From assembly GCA_027459775.1 (NCBI GenBank), contig DAIDHE010000296.1, positions 1 to 39,639 on the forward strand: 39,639 nucleotides of DNA, given 5' to 3'. The DNA is from Planctomycetales bacterium. GTDB taxonomy: Bacteria > Planctomycetota > Planctomycetia > Isosphaerales > Isosphaeraceae. The translations under genes were made by a program, and so were the position numbers. Under the pieces are notes generated by a model. The model saw only the letters and a list, made by a program, of their open reading frames with translations, ran no database searches and was not told the DNA's origin. Positions 1 through 6,506 of this stretch are shown here, one piece after another (positions within the stretch are counted from its first letter, which is position 1; the number at the start of each line of letters is the position of its first letter).

Positions 1-651
1 ACGAGGCAGGCCAGGGATCAGGCGATCAACCCATGCGCCCGCGGCGACTATCAGGCGGTCGGCGATGATCCGAACGGCGTCCCCCAGCAGTACCGGTTTC
101 GCGCCGTCGAGATCGACCCGGCGGATCGGAGTCTGCTCCAGGATCCTGGTACCCGCGCCGCCCAGCGAGCGAGCAAGCCCAACCGCGAGCGCCCGGGCGC
201 GGTCGGCGGCGAGCATGCCGGCGTCGGGCTCGAAGACGACGTCGGCGTCGCCCGGGAGTGCGAAGACGGGATGGCGCGAGTTCCAGTCGCGGCCCGGCCC
301 ATGCCAGTGGGGTACGCCGATCTCGGCCAGATTGGCCGCGACGGCGCTCGTGTAGCTCGAGCCCGCCGGGGCGAATGACACGCCCCCCGTGCGGAAGTAA
401 ACCGATTCGCCGGCCTCGCCCTCGAAATCCCTCCAGGTGCGAAACGCCCAGGGCATGAGCTGGGCGTATGTCCGGTCGGCGTACGAATGGCGAGTGATCC
501 GCGCGGCCCCGTGCGAGCTGCCGCGGTCGTGATCGAGTGCGAATTGCTCGACCAGTAAGACCGGCTCGCCCCGCTTCGCCAGATGATAGGCGGCCATCGC
601 CCCCATGATCCCAGCACCCAGGACCACGTTCCGAGCCTCGATCGTTTCCAT
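1..651 (-). CDS. FAD-dependent oxidoreductase, monomeric sarcosine / N-methyltryptophan oxidase-like (partial, C-terminus off window)
   Basis: The visible 217 residues begin METIEARNVVLGAGIMGAMA, with the Rossmann glycine motif GAGIMG at residues 13-18 that binds the ADP of FAD, followed about 20 residues later by the acidic strand end (LLVEQF). GSSHGAARITRHSYAD matches the characteristic segment of monomeric sarcosine oxidase and N-methyl-L-tryptophan oxidase, enzymes that oxidise N-methylamino acids to the free amino acid, formaldehyde and H2O2. The ATG lies 46 nt after the stop of the type III glutamine synthetase gene on the same strand, so the two look co-transcribed. The C-terminal half, including the cysteine that binds flavin covalently in this family, is outside the window, so substrate and flavin linkage cannot be judged. 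In this context N-methylglutamate is a plausible substrate, by inference. The family call is firm; the substrate is not. Confidence 0.85.
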   Translation of the reverse strand, partial: METIEARNVVLGAGIMGAMAAYHLAKRGEPVLLVEQFALDHDRGSSHGAARITRHSYADRTYAQLMPWAFRTWRDFEGEAGESVYFRTGGVSFAPAGSSYTSAVAANLAEIGVPHWHGPGRDWNSRHPVFALPGDADVVFEPDAGMLAADRARALAVGLARSLGGAGTRILEQTPIRRVDLDGAKPVLLGDAVRIIADRLIVAAGAWVDRLIPGLPR

Positions 652-697
652 GGCTTGTTTTCCCTTCAAAACCTCATTCCACGACGAGCCGGGATTC

Positions 698-2068
698 TCA
701 AAGAGCCGTCAGATAGCGATGGATCTCCCAGGATTCGACCTGGGCGTGGTATTCGTTCCACTCGTCGTGCTTGAGCTTCAAGAATTCCTCGGCGATTGGC
801 CCCAGCGCCTCGCGAACGACGGGGTCGCGCTCGAGACAGCCGAGGGCTTCGATCAGCGTTTGGGGCAGGGTTTTCACTCCCTGCCCGGCCATTGAGGCGA
901 TATCGGCGTCATACAGGTTTCCACGAATCGGGAGCCCGGGGTCGAGCCCGCGCTCGATGCCGTCGAGTCCCGCGGCCAGATAGGCGGCCAGGCCCAGGTA
1001 AGGGTTGACCGCGCTCGAGACCGATCGATCCTCGACATGGCCCGGGCCCGGGGCGCGGAGCATGAGGGTGCGGTTGGAATCGCCAAGAGCGATGAAGGCC
1101 GGCGTCCAGGTATAGCCCGAGCGCGAGCCGCGAAGGGCCGCGCCGATGCGCAGGCGCTTGTAGCAGTTGACCGTCGGCGACAAGACCGCGCAGAGCGCCC
1201 GCGCGTGCTCGACGACGCCCCCCAGAAAATGGTAGGCCAGGGCGCTTTGACCGAGGCCGCGAGGGTCGGCGGCGTCCTCGAACAGGTTGACGCCGTCGTC
1301 GGCGCGGGCCAGGTGATAGTGCAGATGCGCGCCCGAGCCCGTGCGCTCGGCGAACGGCTTGGGCATGAAGGTCGCGATCGCGCCGGCGCGGTGGGCGGCC
1401 TCGCCGAGCATCATCCGAAAGAATATCAACCGATCTGCCGACGTCAGCGCGTCTGAATATTGATAATTGATCTCATATTGATCATTGGCGTCCTCGTGAT
1501 CGGCCTGATAGACGCCCCAGCCCAGGTTGTTCAAGCCGCGGGCGAGGTCGCCGAGCATCTCGAGCACGGGGGCCATGGCCTTGTAGTCGTAGCAGGGTTT
1601 GGCGGCGTGGTCGATCGCGCGGGGATCGTGGCCGCGAATCGAGCCGTCGGGGTTTCTCGTCACTAGAAAGAACTCGGGCTCGATCCCGACGTTGAATGTG
1701 TAGCCCCTGTGGCGGGCCTGGTCGAGGACTCGCTTGAGGTTTTGCCGGGGACAGTAGGGGTGGGGCTCTTGGTCGACGAAGAGGTCGGCGGCGAACCGGG
1801 CGACGCCGGGCTGGAGGGGCATGGGGGTGTAGGTGGCGAGGTCGACCCGCGCCATCAGGTCGTGGGCGTCGGGCCCCTGCCCCATGCCCCAGACCGCGCC
1901 TCCGGCGAAGCCGGCCCCTTCGCGTGCGACGGTCTCGAGGGCGGAGGCGGGGACGAGCTTGACCTTGGCCGCGCCATGGATGTCGACGAACTGAACCAGC
2001 AAGAACGCCACGCCGTCGGCGGTGAACCGGGCCTCGAGCTCGCGGATCAGGGAATCGTTGTCGGCCAT
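698..2068 (-). CDS. glnT: type III glutamine synthetase-like ligase (GlnT / gamma-glutamylmethylamide synthetase type)
   Basis: This 456-residue protein is a glutamine synthetase homologue of the GlnT/GmaS class. The beta-grasp N-domain is followed by catalytic-domain motifs: GIEPEFF (residues 128-134, metal-binding Glu), QYEINY (197-202) and GSGAHLHYH (244-252, glutamate/ATP site). The class ligates ammonia or methylamine to glutamate with ATP. The ATG at 2068 is preferred over an upstream in-frame start at 2125 because GAGG lies 8 nt before it and homology begins at MADNDSLIRELE. It diverges from mgsA across 120 bp and is followed by the flavin oxidase gene. Being next to MgsABC-type genes points to gamma-glutamylmethylamide synthesis from methylamine; the same set is called glnT-glxBCD in rhizobia, where the role is less clear. 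Sequence alone does not separate glutamine from gamma-glutamylmethylamide synthesis. Confidence 0.88.
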   Translation of the reverse strand: MADNDSLIRELEARFTADGVAFLLVQFVDIHGAAKVKLVPASALETVAREGAGFAGGAVWGMGQGPDAHDLMARVDLATYTPMPLQPGVARFAADLFVDQEPHPYCPRQNLKRVLDQARHRGYTFNVGIEPEFFLVTRNPDGSIRGHDPRAIDHAAKPCYDYKAMAPVLEMLGDLARGLNNLGWGVYQADHEDANDQYEINYQYSDALTSADRLIFFRMMLGEAAHRAGAIATFMPKPFAERTGSGAHLHYHLARADDGVNLFEDAADPRGLGQSALAYHFLGGVVEHARALCAVLSPTVNCYKRLRIGAALRGSRSGYTWTPAFIALGDSNRTLMLRAPGPGHVEDRSVSSAVNPYLGLAAYLAAGLDGIERGLDPGLPIRGNLYDADIASMAGQGVKTLPQTLIEALGCLERDPVVREALGPIAEEFLKLKHDEWNEYHAQVESWEIHRYLTAL

Positions 2069-2118
2069 CGAATACCTCGCTCGGGTCGGTCGGTCGGGGA
2101 ATCGGCAGCCAATTGTCG

Positions 2119-2154
2119 ACGACATCGACCGCGTGAGCCAGTAGAATCAGGATC
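2119..2154 (+). promoter_or_regulatory. candidate sigma70-type promoter for mgsAB
   Basis: ACGACA (2119-2124, 4/6 to TTGACA) and TAGAAT (2142-2147, 5/6 to TATAAT) are separated by 17 bp in the divergent glnT-mgsA intergenic region. Transcription would start near 2154, about 35 bp before the mgsA ATG. Read by eye only. Confidence 0.3.
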
Positions 2155-2188
2155 TCGGCCGGTCGTTTTTCTGGTAGGGTGAATCCTC

Positions 2189-3157
2189 ATGTGCGGCATC
2201 GTCGGGTTTTTGGCGAAGGATTCCGCGCACGCGGCGGCGAGCGGGCGAATCGTGCTCGAGATGCTCGAGGCCCTGGCTCGCCGCGGGCCCGACGGCGCGG
2301 GCTTCGCCGGGATCGGTCCGGCGGTCGATGGGCACGATCAAACGGTCGTGATTCGCATTGCCGGGGGCGAATTGAGGGTTCTGCGCGCTCTCGATGCGCT
2401 CGGAATCGTGGACCAATCCGGCTCTGGTCCGCGGCTCGAGGGGGGGACGATCCGGCTGCGATTCGAGCCCGCCCAGGGCGTGACGGCGGGCCAGGTCGAG
2501 ACCGCGCTCTCGGCCGCGGCGGGCGCTCCCGAGGTTCTCGCATTCGGACCGCGGCTCGAGCTGGTGAAAGGCGTCGGGCCGCCGCGGGCCCTCGAGGCCG
2601 CCCATGCCGTTTCGCGGTTCGTCGGACCAGTCGCGATCGGCCACACCCGGATGTCGACCGAGAGCCGGATCGACCTCTGCCACTCACAGCCGTTTTGGAT
2701 CCACGGGCTTCCCGATCACGCGATCGTCCACAATGGACATATCACGAATTATCACAGGCTGCGCAGGGCGTTCGAGCAAGAAGGCGCTCGGTTCCATACC
2801 GAAAATGACTCGGAAGTGATCGGCGTCTTTCTGAAGCGCTCCATGGATCAGGGTCTCGACCTGATCCAGGCGATGGAGCGATCGGTGGACGAACTCGACG
2901 GCTCGTTTAATTATCTGGTGGCCGCGCCGGAGGGACTGGGGGTGGTCCGCGACCCCCATGGCTTCAAGCCTCTCGTGCTCGCCGACGCCGTCGAGTTCAC
3001 AGCCGTCGCGACCGAGGAGATCGCGCTTGAGCAGGCGCTTCCGGGCCCCTTCCACGCCCGCGAGCCGGCCCCGGGCTCGGTCCTGTTTTTTCCCGCCCCC
3101 AAGCCGGCTCAATCGGCCCGGGACGCAGGCCAGCGACTCCGGAGCACCGGAACGTGA
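2189..3157 (+). CDS. mgsA: class II glutamine amidotransferase subunit (MgsA/GlxB-like)
   Basis: The 322-residue protein starts MCGIVGFLAK, so Cys2 becomes the N-terminal nucleophile of an Ntn-type glutaminase after Met removal. RRGPDGAGFAG, HTRMSTES and IVHNGHITNY are the usual class II amidotransferase landmarks. It corresponds to the amidotransferase domain of glutamate synthase as a separate protein. In the N-methylglutamate pathway MgsA hydrolyses gamma-glutamylmethylamide and channels methylamine to the synthase subunits. Its stop overlaps the GTG start of the next gene (GTGA, 3154-3157), indicating translational coupling. About 80 residues around 45-125 diverge from the compact family core. 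An ordinary role in ammonia transfer remains possible. Confidence 0.85.
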   Translation: MCGIVGFLAKDSAHAAASGRIVLEMLEALARRGPDGAGFAGIGPAVDGHDQTVVIRIAGGELRVLRALDALGIVDQSGSGPRLEGGTIRLRFEPAQGVTAGQVETALSAAAGAPEVLAFGPRLELVKGVGPPRALEAAHAVSRFVGPVAIGHTRMSTESRIDLCHSQPFWIHGLPDHAIVHNGHITNYHRLRRAFEQEGARFHTENDSEVIGVFLKRSMDQGLDLIQAMERSVDELDGSFNYLVAAPEGLGVVRDPHGFKPLVLADAVEFTAVATEEIALEQALPGPFHAREPAPGSVLFFPAPKPAQSARDAGQRLRSTGT

Positions 3158-3894
3158 GCGAGCCCTTGCCGAACAGCGACCCGCCGGCGGCCAGGCCCGA
3201 AGCGGCCGTCATCGATTGCCAGGGGTTGACGACGCGCGCGATCGGTGCGGCCGTCTGGGCGGCCGTTGACCTGGGGTCGAAAACCGCGCGGTTGGAGAAT
3301 CCAGGCGCCAGGCACAGTCTGGGCGTGGCCTTGCCAGAGGGCTTTGAGCTCGTGATCGCCGGGAGTGCTGGCTATTACGCGGGCGGTCTCAACGACGGCG
3401 CGACGATCCGAATCGAGGGCAATGCCGGCTGGGCTGCGGCGGAGAGCCAGCGGGCGGGGACCGTCGTGATCGCCGGCAACGCGGGCAACGCCGTGGCCGC
3501 CTCGATTCGCTCGGGGCTGGTGGTGGTGCGAGGGAACGCCTCCACCCGGGCGGGTATCGGCATGAAGGGGGGAGCGCTCGTCGTCGCGGGCGATGCCGGG
3601 CCCATGGCCGGGTTCATGATGCAAAAGGGAGCGATCGTCATCGTCGGCGACGCCGGCGACGGGGTCGCCGACAGCATGTACGAGGGGACGATTTACCTGG
3701 GGGGCCAGGCGGGCGAGCTCGGGGCCGACGCCGTCTTTCAAGAGATCGGGCCGGCCGATCACCGGCTGATCGAGGATCTGCTCGGACGGGCCGGCCTGTC
3801 CCGGCCCGTCAACGGCTTTCGCAAGCTGGTCGCGGGGCGAAAGCTCTGGAATTTCCAGACGAGCGAGCGCGCGGTCTGGAAGGGGGCTCTTTGA
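3154..3894 (+). CDS. mgsB: glutamate synthase GXGXG-domain subunit (MgsB/GlxC-like)
   Basis: The 246-residue protein consists mainly of the right-handed beta-helix of the glutamate synthase C-terminal (GXGXG) domain. Repeated glycine-rich rungs are visible: IEGNAGWAAAES, VIAGNAGNAVAAS, VVAGDAGPMAG and VIVGDAGDGVADS. This domain has no active site; in glutamate synthase it is structural and helps form the ammonia tunnel. It begins at a GTG overlapping the mgsA stop, so the two proteins are probably made in equal amounts. As a separate polypeptide of this size it matches MgsB/GlxC. A 258-bp gap with a promoter-like sequence follows before the next gene. Confidence 0.85.
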   Translation: MSEPLPNSDPPAARPEAAVIDCQGLTTRAIGAAVWAAVDLGSKTARLENPGARHSLGVALPEGFELVIAGSAGYYAGGLNDGATIRIEGNAGWAAAESQRAGTVVIAGNAGNAVAASIRSGLVVVRGNASTRAGIGMKGGALVVAGDAGPMAGFMMQKGAIVIVGDAGDGVADSMYEGTIYLGGQAGELGADAVFQEIGPADHRLIEDLLGRAGLSRPVNGFRKLVAGRKLWNFQTSERAVWKGAL

Positions 3895-3931
3895 AGGTTC
3901 GGTAAAATACCAATTCCTGTTCGGCACATGA

Positions 3932-3960
3932 TTGACAGTGAGGGTGGGCCCTCGTAAAGT
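3932..3960 (+). promoter_or_regulatory. candidate promoter with embedded inverted repeat upstream of the TPR gene and mgsC
   Basis: A perfect TTGACA (3932-3937) is followed by a 17-bp spacer and TAAAGT (3955-3960, 4/6 to TATAAT). The spacer holds an inverted repeat, GAGGG-TGGG-CCCTC (3940-3953), which could be an operator or simply a small hairpin. It would give the TPR gene and mgsC a start independent of mgsAB. Confidence 0.4.
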
Positions 3961-4152
3961 CGGGTGGAATCCGCCTTGAACGCATGAGTCTGTCAGTCAC
4001 TCCTCGAATCGTCTATCATCATTAGAAAGCGTCTCCGCCGCGGCCGCCATTTTCGGGGGTTGCAGGTGGGGGGTGCGCGACCATGATGGGGCGGATCGAG
4101 CGATCTCGATCAACGTCGATCACCGGCTCCGAACACGCATGATCCACGACCC

Positions 4153-5067
4153 ATGAGAATGTACCAGCTCTTACAGCAGGCGATCAACTGGCCGGGTCCG
4201 CGGGCGCTGGGCGTGGCGGTCGCGTTCGCGGCCGTCTTGGTGCTGGCCGCGGGGATGATCGCGCTTTCGGGTCGATTCCGCTGGTTCTCGCGCGGGCTGG
4301 CCCTCCTGGGTTGCCTGGTGATCATGGCGGCCTGTGCGACGATTCGCTTGCAGACGATCACCGAGCACCAATCCGAAAGCATCACCGTGATCCGCCCTCG
4401 CAACACCGAGGCCGAGCGCATCCGCGCGGGCTGGGGCCTGGTCGCCGTCCCGGCGGCCGTGGCGGCATGGGTGGTGGTCGCCTGGATCGCACGCCGACAA
4501 TGGCTTCGCTCCCAGATCCCGCGCAGGCTCAAGCTCGGCCATAAGTATCAGGTCGAAGGCGATTATCCCGCGGCTCTGGCCCAATACACTCATGCGATCC
4601 AGATCTCGCCGCGTCTGGGCGAGGCCTACTGCGCCCGCGCGCGAGTTTACAAGGCCATGGCAGATAAGGAACTCGCCCGCGCCGATTTCGATCGGGCGAT
4701 CGATCTCGAGCCCAGGCACGCGCGGTCGCGGATCGAGCGTGCGATGTTAAGAATCGAAAAAGGCGAGATCGAGCCCGCGCTCGATGACCTTGCCATTGCG
4801 TTCATCTTGCGCGCCAACGATCCCGAATGCCATCTCCTGCGTGGAATCTGCCTCTTCCACAAGGGCGAGTTCGATGAGGCGCTCGCGGATTTTCATCGGG
4901 TGCTCAAACTGACCAACCACTCCGACTTCGCCGATCCCGCCCGGGCGTACATCCAACAGATTGAGGCCCCGCAAGCGGGCGGCGTTCCAGGCAGCCACCA
5001 TACCGGCAACGGGGCGCCCTCGGCCCAACCCCAAGATTTCCTCAAGCCCCAAGATCACACCTATTGA
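4153..5067 (+). CDS. membrane-anchored tetratricopeptide-repeat protein
   Basis: The 304-residue protein has three predicted hydrophobic helices (about residues 17-37, 44-63 and 92-112) followed by a soluble part built of at least three tetratricopeptide repeats. The repeats show the alternating pattern GDYPAALAQYTHAIQISPRL, ADFDRAIDLEPRHA and GEFDEALADFHRVLKL. The tail after about residue 270 is low-complexity and rich in Pro, Gln and His. TPRs usually scaffold protein complexes. It sits between mgsB and mgsC, and its stop overlaps a possible TTG start of mgsC, so it is probably co-transcribed with mgsC. It is not part of the described mgs system. No specific function is recognisable. Confidence 0.82.
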   Translation: MRMYQLLQQAINWPGPRALGVAVAFAAVLVLAAGMIALSGRFRWFSRGLALLGCLVIMAACATIRLQTITEHQSESITVIRPRNTEAERIRAGWGLVAVPAAVAAWVVVAWIARRQWLRSQIPRRLKLGHKYQVEGDYPAALAQYTHAIQISPRLGEAYCARARVYKAMADKELARADFDRAIDLEPRHARSRIERAMLRIEKGEIEPALDDLAIAFILRANDPECHLLRGICLFHKGEFDEALADFHRVLKLTNHSDFADPARAYIQQIEAPQAGGVPGSHHTGNGAPSAQPQDFLKPQDHTY

Positions 5068-5099
5068 ACGACGATCGAGGCGCCAAGGATCGCGGACTC

Positions 5100-6506
5100 A
5101 TGACGCCGGACGACAGCACGGCGGATCAGCCAACCGAATCCACGCAGGGCCGCCATGACCGTGGCGGCGACCCCTCGCCGCGCGAACGCTCCGGCGTCTT
5201 TTCGCCCGCGGTGATCGAGGACATCCAGATCAAGGCCGAGCTCGCGCGGTATCGCATCCGCGGCTTTGGAACCTTGCGCCCGCGCACCTGGGCCACCTTC
5301 GACGACCTGACCTTCATCCCCGCCGGGCTGACCCGGATCCCGCTCGAAGGCTATCGCGAATCGTGCTCGAGCCGCACAATCATTGGGACGCGGTTCGCGT
5401 CGCGGCCGATCGAGCTCGAGATCCCGCTCATGGCCACGGGAATGAGCTTTGGAGCGCTCTCGCTGCCCGCCAAGACAGCGATCGCCCGGGGCGCACGGTT
5501 GGCGGGCACGTCGTCGACGACGGGAGACGGCGGGATGCTCGAGGTCGAGCGCGCTGAATCGCGGATCCTGATCTACGAGGTTTTGCCCAGCCGCTATGGG
5601 ATCGACGTTCGCCATCTGAAGCAGGCCGACGCGATTGAGCTCACGATCGGCCAGGGTGCGAAGCCGGGCACCGGCGGGCTGCTGTTGGGCGCGAAGGTCT
5701 CGGGCGAGATCGCCAAACGCCGCGATTTGCCTCCCGGGGTCGATCAGCGCTCGCCATGCCGGCATCCCGATTTCCTGGGCCCCGACGACCTGGTGCTCAA
5801 GATCGAGGAGCTCCGCGAGGCCACGCGTTACCGCGTACCGATCTTCGTCAAGATGGGCGCTTCGCGCGTTTTTGACGATGTCCGGCTCGCCGCCAAGGCG
5901 GGCGCGGACGTGGTCGTGGTCGACGGCATGGAAGGGGGCACGGGCGCTTCCCCGGAATTGCTTCAGGAGCACACCGGCATCCCCACGCTCGCCGCCGTCT
6001 GCGAGGCCCGCGCGGCCCTCGAGGACGTCGGCCTGTTCGGAACGGTTCAGCTCGTGATCGCCGGCGGCCTTCGCCATGGCGCCGACTGCGCCAAGGCCCT
6101 CGCCCTGGGGGCCGACGCCTGTTACCTGGGAACGGCGCTCTTGATCGCTCTCAACTGCAATAAACCTCTTTATATCGACGATTACCACGCCATCGGCGCT
6201 GCCCCCTACGAATGTCATCATTGCCACACGGGCCGCTGCCCGGTGGGCATCACGACCCAGGATCCGGTCCTTTCGGCCCGCCTCGCAATCGAACCCGCCG
6301 CCGAGCGCGTCGCCAATTTCTTCCACGCCCTGGACGCCGAGATCCAGATGCTCGCCCGCGCCTGCGGCAAGAGCGACGTCCACAACCTCGAGCCCGAGGA
6401 TCTCCGCGCGCTGTCGCTCGAGGCCTCGCTCATCACCGGCCTGCCTCTGGCCGGTGCCAACCGCCCCTTCGCCGGCGGGCCGGGGTGGAAGAGCCAGCAT
6501 CCCTGA
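5100..6506 (+). CDS. mgsC: FMN-binding glutamate synthase-type subunit (MgsC/GlxD-like)
   Basis: The 468-residue protein is the FMN/iron-sulfur synthase domain of the glutamate synthase family. Visible landmarks are GDGGMLEVER, the loop GQGAKPGTGG, VVVDGMEGGTGASPE, and a phosphate-binding region IAGGLRHGADCAKALALGAD. Cysteines at about residues 372, 375 and 380 (ECHHCHTGRCPVG) form the iron-sulfur cluster motif, spaced CX2CX4C. With MgsA and MgsB it would transfer methylamine from gamma-glutamylmethylamide onto 2-oxoglutarate to give N-methylglutamate. The ATG at 5100 is chosen because AAGGA lies 10 nt upstream; a TTG at 5064 overlapping the previous stop is the alternative and would add 12 residues. 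Either way the first ~45 residues look disordered. It is convergent with fumC, with only 7 bp between the stops. Confidence 0.86.
   Translation: MTPDDSTADQPTESTQGRHDRGGDPSPRERSGVFSPAVIEDIQIKAELARYRIRGFGTLRPRTWATFDDLTFIPAGLTRIPLEGYRESCSSRTIIGTRFASRPIELEIPLMATGMSFGALSLPAKTAIARGARLAGTSSTTGDGGMLEVERAESRILIYEVLPSRYGIDVRHLKQADAIELTIGQGAKPGTGGLLLGAKVSGEIAKRRDLPPGVDQRSPCRHPDFLGPDDLVLKIEELREATRYRVPIFVKMGASRVFDDVRLAAKAGADVVVVDGMEGGTGASPELLQEHTGIPTLAAVCEARAALEDVGLFGTVQLVIAGGLRHGADCAKALALGADACYLGTALLIALNCNKPLYIDDYHAIGAAPYECHHCHTGRCPVGITTQDPVLSARLAIEPAAERVANFFHALDAEIQMLARACGKSDVHNLEPEDLRALSLEASLITGLPLAGANRPFAGGPGWKSQHP

Follow-up and report, generated by a model that had tools for sequence, protein, structure and literature searches.

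The closest described system is the N-methylglutamate pathway, encoded by gmaS, mgsABC and mgdABCD and described from Proteobacteria such as Methyloversatilis universalis; gmaS serves as a marker for methylamine users. The locus analysed here, from a member of the Isosphaeraceae (Planctomycetota), resembles that system: gmaS is present, the three mgs subunits share its domain composition, and the residues of the GmaS site are identical. It differs in that mgdABCD is missing and a one-subunit oxidase of the monomeric sarcosine oxidase (MSOX) family adjoins gmaS, and in that mgsABC is divergent in sequence, divergently transcribed and interrupted by a TPR gene that separates mgsC from mgsB. A one-subunit ending would be a variant of the known N-methylglutamate pathway. 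The mgsABC-gmaS-mgdA loci of Pirellulaceae and Planctomycetaceae (L044, L046, L048 and L051) share the gene set of the first two steps, with a gmaS about 60% identical, but there mgdA lies directly 3' of gmaS, together with mgdC where the contig reaches, and the locus holds no monomeric oxidase. In another Isosphaeraceae genome (G006, Centralia_MAG_412), the order mgsC-TPR-mgsB-mgsA / gmaS-oxidase is the same as here, but a complete mgdABCD follows straight after the oxidase. The literature searched yielded no paper dealing with methylamine use in Isosphaeraceae, none describing an N-methylglutamate oxidase of one subunit, and no published report of MSOX-family activity on N-methylglutamate.

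The window, that is, the whole stretch of DNA analysed (39,639 nucleotides), is the entire contig C396 of the draft genome G000, whose assembly comprises 494 contigs and is 89.7% complete; absences in this genome are read within that limit. A leftward unit consists of gmaS followed by the oxidase gene and a rightward unit of mgsA, mgsB, the TPR gene and mgsC:

1..651, minus strand: flavoenzyme of the monomeric sarcosine oxidase family, first 217 of ~376 residues, truncated by the contig end
698..2068, minus strand: gmaS, gamma-glutamylmethylamide synthetase (TIGR03105; PDB 9qur; residues)
2069..2188, no strand: short intergenic region separating the divergent gmaS-oxidase and mgsAB units (sequence)
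2189..3157, plus strand: mgsA-like glutaminase, a class-II amidotransferase with N-terminal Cys (PF13537/PF13522; MCGIVGF start)
3154..3894, plus strand: mgsB-like GXGXG subunit (PF01493; 4-base overlap with mgsA)
4153..5067, plus strand: gene for a TPR membrane protein, between mgsB and mgsC (family scan; locus comparison)
5064..6506, plus strand: mgsC-like FMN/Fe-S subunit (PF01645, Glu_synthase; CHHCHTGRC Fe-S motif)
beyond mgsC, other strand: fumC, mnmE and yidC (named from their sequences)

Family scans found every gene of the original prediction in its place, namely the ligase, the MgsA, MgsB and MgsC types and the flavoenzyme, in two divergent units; the TPR gene is one that it does not mention. 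A longer gmaS, starting at an alternative ATG at 2125, is possible, and the intergenic region holds a weak promoter-like match at 2119-2147. Another promoter-like site (TTGACA-17-TAAAGT) lies at 3932-3960, 5' of the TPR-mgsC pair, and suggests that this pair may be a separate transcription unit. The TPR gene is probably a resident gene outside the methylamine pathway, because it adjoins the oxidase in gmaS-less relatives too.

The gmaS product scores 542 bits against TIGR03105 (cut-off 470), an NCBIfam match labelled type III glutamate--ammonia ligase, and its nearest solved relatives are the glutamate--methylamine ligase 9qur (the best, E=1e-123) and RhGmaS (7cql). When compared with the methylamine-site and catalytic residues reported for RhGmaS (PMC7948447), it conserves all of K30, A48, Y147, Q175, D177, E179, E186, N188, W300 and R312. 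Trp300 replaces the Glu-flap glutamate and Ala48 the Asp50-loop aspartate, so that both substitutions distinguishing GmaS from glutamine synthetases are present. By this residue signature a methylamine-type ligase is well supported, with a predicted preference for methylamine over ammonia. MgsABC is made of three subunits, a glutaminase, a GXGXG protein and an FMN/Fe-S protein, as revealed by family scans and motifs. In a tree of MgsC, seven Isosphaeraceae rows group with MgsC proteins from gmaS loci and lie far from GltB, which the same genomes encode separately and at full length. The Isosphaeraceae proteins form a deep separate clade beside the known-type MgsC, and the identity of MgsA, MgsB and MgsC to the Pirellulaceae subunits is only ~30, 39 and 55%, respectively. 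Comparison of G000 with G001 shows purifying selection on all four gmaS-mgsABC genes (omega 0.08-0.23; 0.14 for gmaS and 0.08 for mgsC). Methylamine use by this locus is therefore a well-supported prediction from gene sequences, and the GmaS and MgsABC assignments of the original prediction are borne out by the TIGR03105 score, the match to 9qur, the residue signature and the MgsC tree.

We searched the genome for the enzyme that would complete the pathway, taking GCV_T proteins as the indicator of MgdC. In agreement with the absence of mgdABCD claimed by the original prediction, the whole-genome search of G000 returned neither SoxD (MgdB) nor a SoxA-type GCV_T protein, and the same was true of the near-finished gmaS-positive relatives G028 (4 contigs) and G084 (6 contigs), each ~99% complete or more. 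SoxD was not found in 44 of 45 Isosphaeraceae genomes and is present in one, and the GCV_T proteins of the gmaS-positive genomes, G006 excepted, are of the GcvT and YgfZ types only. The absence of mgdABCD within the family is real, the genes having been lost in seven of its eight gmaS-positive members, and since it extends to G000 and two near-finished relatives, a one-subunit ending can fairly be inferred. As for formaldehyde handling, Fae was found in the genome; it is encoded in all 10 genomes tested, gmaS-positive and gmaS-less alike.

Contig C94 opens with the remainder of the oxidase (C94:3-473), which aligns at 76% identity with the last 147 residues of the G001 orthologue, and the downstream genes of this contig match those in G001 and G002, which are of the same genus. 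The full-length G001 orthologue matches monomeric sarcosine oxidase with E=6e-54 and has a predicted fold (mean pLDDT 89.5) that matches MSOX (TM-score ~0.9 to 2gb0 and 7exs). The MSOX catalytic residues R49, R52, Y55, Y254, K265, H269 and K348 are conserved, as is C315, the residue that links FAD covalently. Predicted fold, catalytic residues and Cys315, all shared with monomeric sarcosine oxidase and N-methyltryptophan oxidase, place the enzyme in the monomeric sarcosine oxidase family. It differs from these two by an identity of ~33% and in its pocket, compared here by residues alone: Met245, which forms part of the sarcosine pocket in MSOX (PMC12582975), is Ile in all orthologues, and nearly all have Ala in place of Thr48. 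With Ile throughout at position 245, the preferred substrate may therefore not be sarcosine. A pocket-side lysine beside position 245 was considered as a mark of gmaS-positive genomes and rejected, as it is found with and without gmaS and is missing in G006.

The oxidase gene lies immediately 3' of gmaS on the same strand in seven of the eight gmaS-positive genomes, with gaps of ~20-200 bp (G006 excepted). The linkage seen in the window thus recurs in relatives, in six genera and in two distinct chromosomal contexts. The neighbourhoods of gmaS-less relatives are equally informative. G028 and G011, of one genus, have collinear flanks around a 4.7 kb gmaS-mgsABC block that is missing in G011, and the oxidase is in both. 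In G002, from the genus of the window, the oxidase, the TPR gene, fumC and mnmE follow in order without gmaS, mgsA, mgsB and mgsC, and the same arrangement, with gmaS-mgs missing beside the oxidase, is found in G079 and G018. Adjacency of the TPR and oxidase genes without gmaS is compatible with either gain or loss of the gmaS-mgs genes.

We then asked how far the oxidase tracks gmaS. At a threshold of at least 44% identity, oxidase orthologues are present in 37 of 45 Isosphaeraceae genomes and gmaS in only 8 (seven detected, plus the fragmented gene of G026), so that 29 of the 37 gmaS-less genomes carry the oxidase and its occurrence is not tied to gmaS-mgs. Calculated from these counts, the chance of finding it in all eight gmaS-positive genomes is ~0.18; hence, the co-occurrence is uninformative. 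The oxidase tree follows the genera, and the gmaS-linked oxidases are not one clade (six changes, the same as in shuffles). Joint horizontal transfer of oxidase and gmaS was rejected, since the oxidase tree tracks genus. Pocket residues are identical between oxidases from gmaS-positive and gmaS-less genomes, and no alignment column was found that discriminates the two sets. In gmaS-less pairs the oxidase is under purifying selection (omega 0.14-0.33). Because it is kept, selected and in place in genomes lacking gmaS, the oxidase has a function independent of gmaS. The original prediction, that the oxidase belongs to the pathway, consequently finds no support in its distribution (orthologues in 29 of 37 gmaS-less genomes, with the same pocket residues, chromosomal place and purifying selection), and its view of the oxidase as simply standing in place of MgdABCD is weakened by G006, which carries both side by side; the two are therefore not mutually exclusive, nor simple alternatives.

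Gene content, the GmaS residue signature, the family placements, the missing mgd genes, the recurrent linkage and the wide spread of the oxidase are what was observed. The reading that we favour, with a probability of about 0.5, is an N-methylglutamate-type locus in which an older, family-wide N-methyl-amino-acid oxidase replaces the lost mgdABCD at the last step, all substrates named being predictions. GmaS would join methylamine and glutamate, and MgsABC would turn the methylamine of the amide into N-methylglutamate. The adjacent MSOX-like enzyme would then demethylate N-methylglutamate to glutamate, formaldehyde and H2O2, the formaldehyde being handled by Fae and the H4MPT route. The oxidase would not be a dedicated invention but would have a function of its own, with sarcosine or a different N-methyl amino acid as the probable substrate; as the last-step enzyme it is plausible rather than specifically supported by its sequence. 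Slightly short of even odds is the narrower proposal that it is a working N-methylglutamate demethylase, making GmaS, MgsABC and the oxidase a complete pathway in Isosphaeraceae, and that it replaced mgdABCD through a stage with both present, of which G006 is a surviving example; Actinomycetota may offer a parallel. We counted in favour of this reading the GmaS residues, the position of MgsC outside GltB, the missing mgd genes, the gmaS linkage, mgdA occupying the place of the oxidase in Pirellulaceae, the catalytic residues, Fae and purifying selection, and against it the oxidase in 29 of 37 gmaS-less genomes, the lack of a separating column, the presence of both enzymes in G006, the lack of a report of MSOX-family activity on N-methylglutamate in the literature searched and the 89.7% completeness of G000.

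An appreciable chance, about one in three, is left to an oxidase that acts on sarcosine or other N-methyl amino acids and has no methylamine role, its adjacency to gmaS reflecting shared locus ancestry, while an unrecognised enzyme demethylates N-methylglutamate. Such an oxidase would be the core gene independent of gmaS that we see, with a tree ordered by genus in which linked oxidases form no clade, an unchanged position in the gmaS-less G011, G002, G079 and G018, purifying selection in gmaS-less pairs and co-residence with mgdABCD in G006. However, it would leave the tight same-strand linkage to gmaS in six genera and two chromosomal settings to ancestry alone; no SoxA/SoxD or GCV_T-type alternative was found in the near-finished gmaS-positive genomes, and with Ile for Met245 the pocket is no strict copy of that for sarcosine. 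It is improbable that the pathway ends at N-methylglutamate, which would be exported or kept as, for instance, a solute, or that the ligase and synthase are a nitrogen-scavenging or detoxifying pair with no demethylation: loss of mgdABCD in seven of eight gmaS-positive members and the divergent MgsABC clade would fit, but a demethylating-type oxidase is adjacent, and a demethylase is retained at the locus in the Pirellulaceae relatives and G006. That the GS homologue is an ordinary type III enzyme, a case raised by the original prediction and echoed in the NCBIfam name, or ligates some other amine, with MgsABC being a split glutamate synthase and neither having a methylamine link, is improbable given the full set of GmaS-specific residues, GmaS structures as the best relatives, a separate full-length GltB in the genomes and homologues linked to mgdABCD.

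Returning to replacement by a one-subunit oxidase, a second case is possible. Gordonia and Mycobacterium loci (L065, L083, L062 and L075) combine gmaS-mgsABC with a single DAO-family flavoenzyme nearby, usually directly 3' of mgsC, and SoxD is missing in 8 of the 15 genomes searched. Their flavoenzyme belongs to another subfamily, ~25% identical to the oxidase described here and lying between SoxB and N-methyltryptophan oxidase. If replacement is true, genome surveys that require mgdABCD would miss planctomycetes finishing the pathway by a generic oxidase, and the C1 unit would be released as free formaldehyde, with H2O2, requiring the Fae/H4MPT route, which these bacteria have. The locus offers a clean test case for the loss of a four-subunit enzyme whose step is covered by a general oxidase.

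Some minor observations were made on these genes. One in-frame TAG interrupts each of two otherwise conserved genes, mgsC of G084 (L154:16563-18050) and the oxidase gene of G079 (L143:6307-7431), in both at a position where relatives have Glu, between Ala and Leu; decay, an error in the sequence or a systematic cause might each explain it. A linkage of the oxidase to glycine cleavage in gmaS-less genomes, suspected from gene sizes, was rejected, the neighbours being hisS, hisZ and hisG. In several gmaS-less Isosphaeraceae the oxidase adjoins these three genes or lies within a few kb of them (L158, L157, L159, L160, L156, L148 and L150). Four Isosphaeraceae genomes from two genera, gmaS-positive and gmaS-less ones among them, have a cyanophycinase-family gene adjoining the oxidase (L125:6820-7830, L124:6883-7860, L151:4756-5781 and L153:7166-8221).
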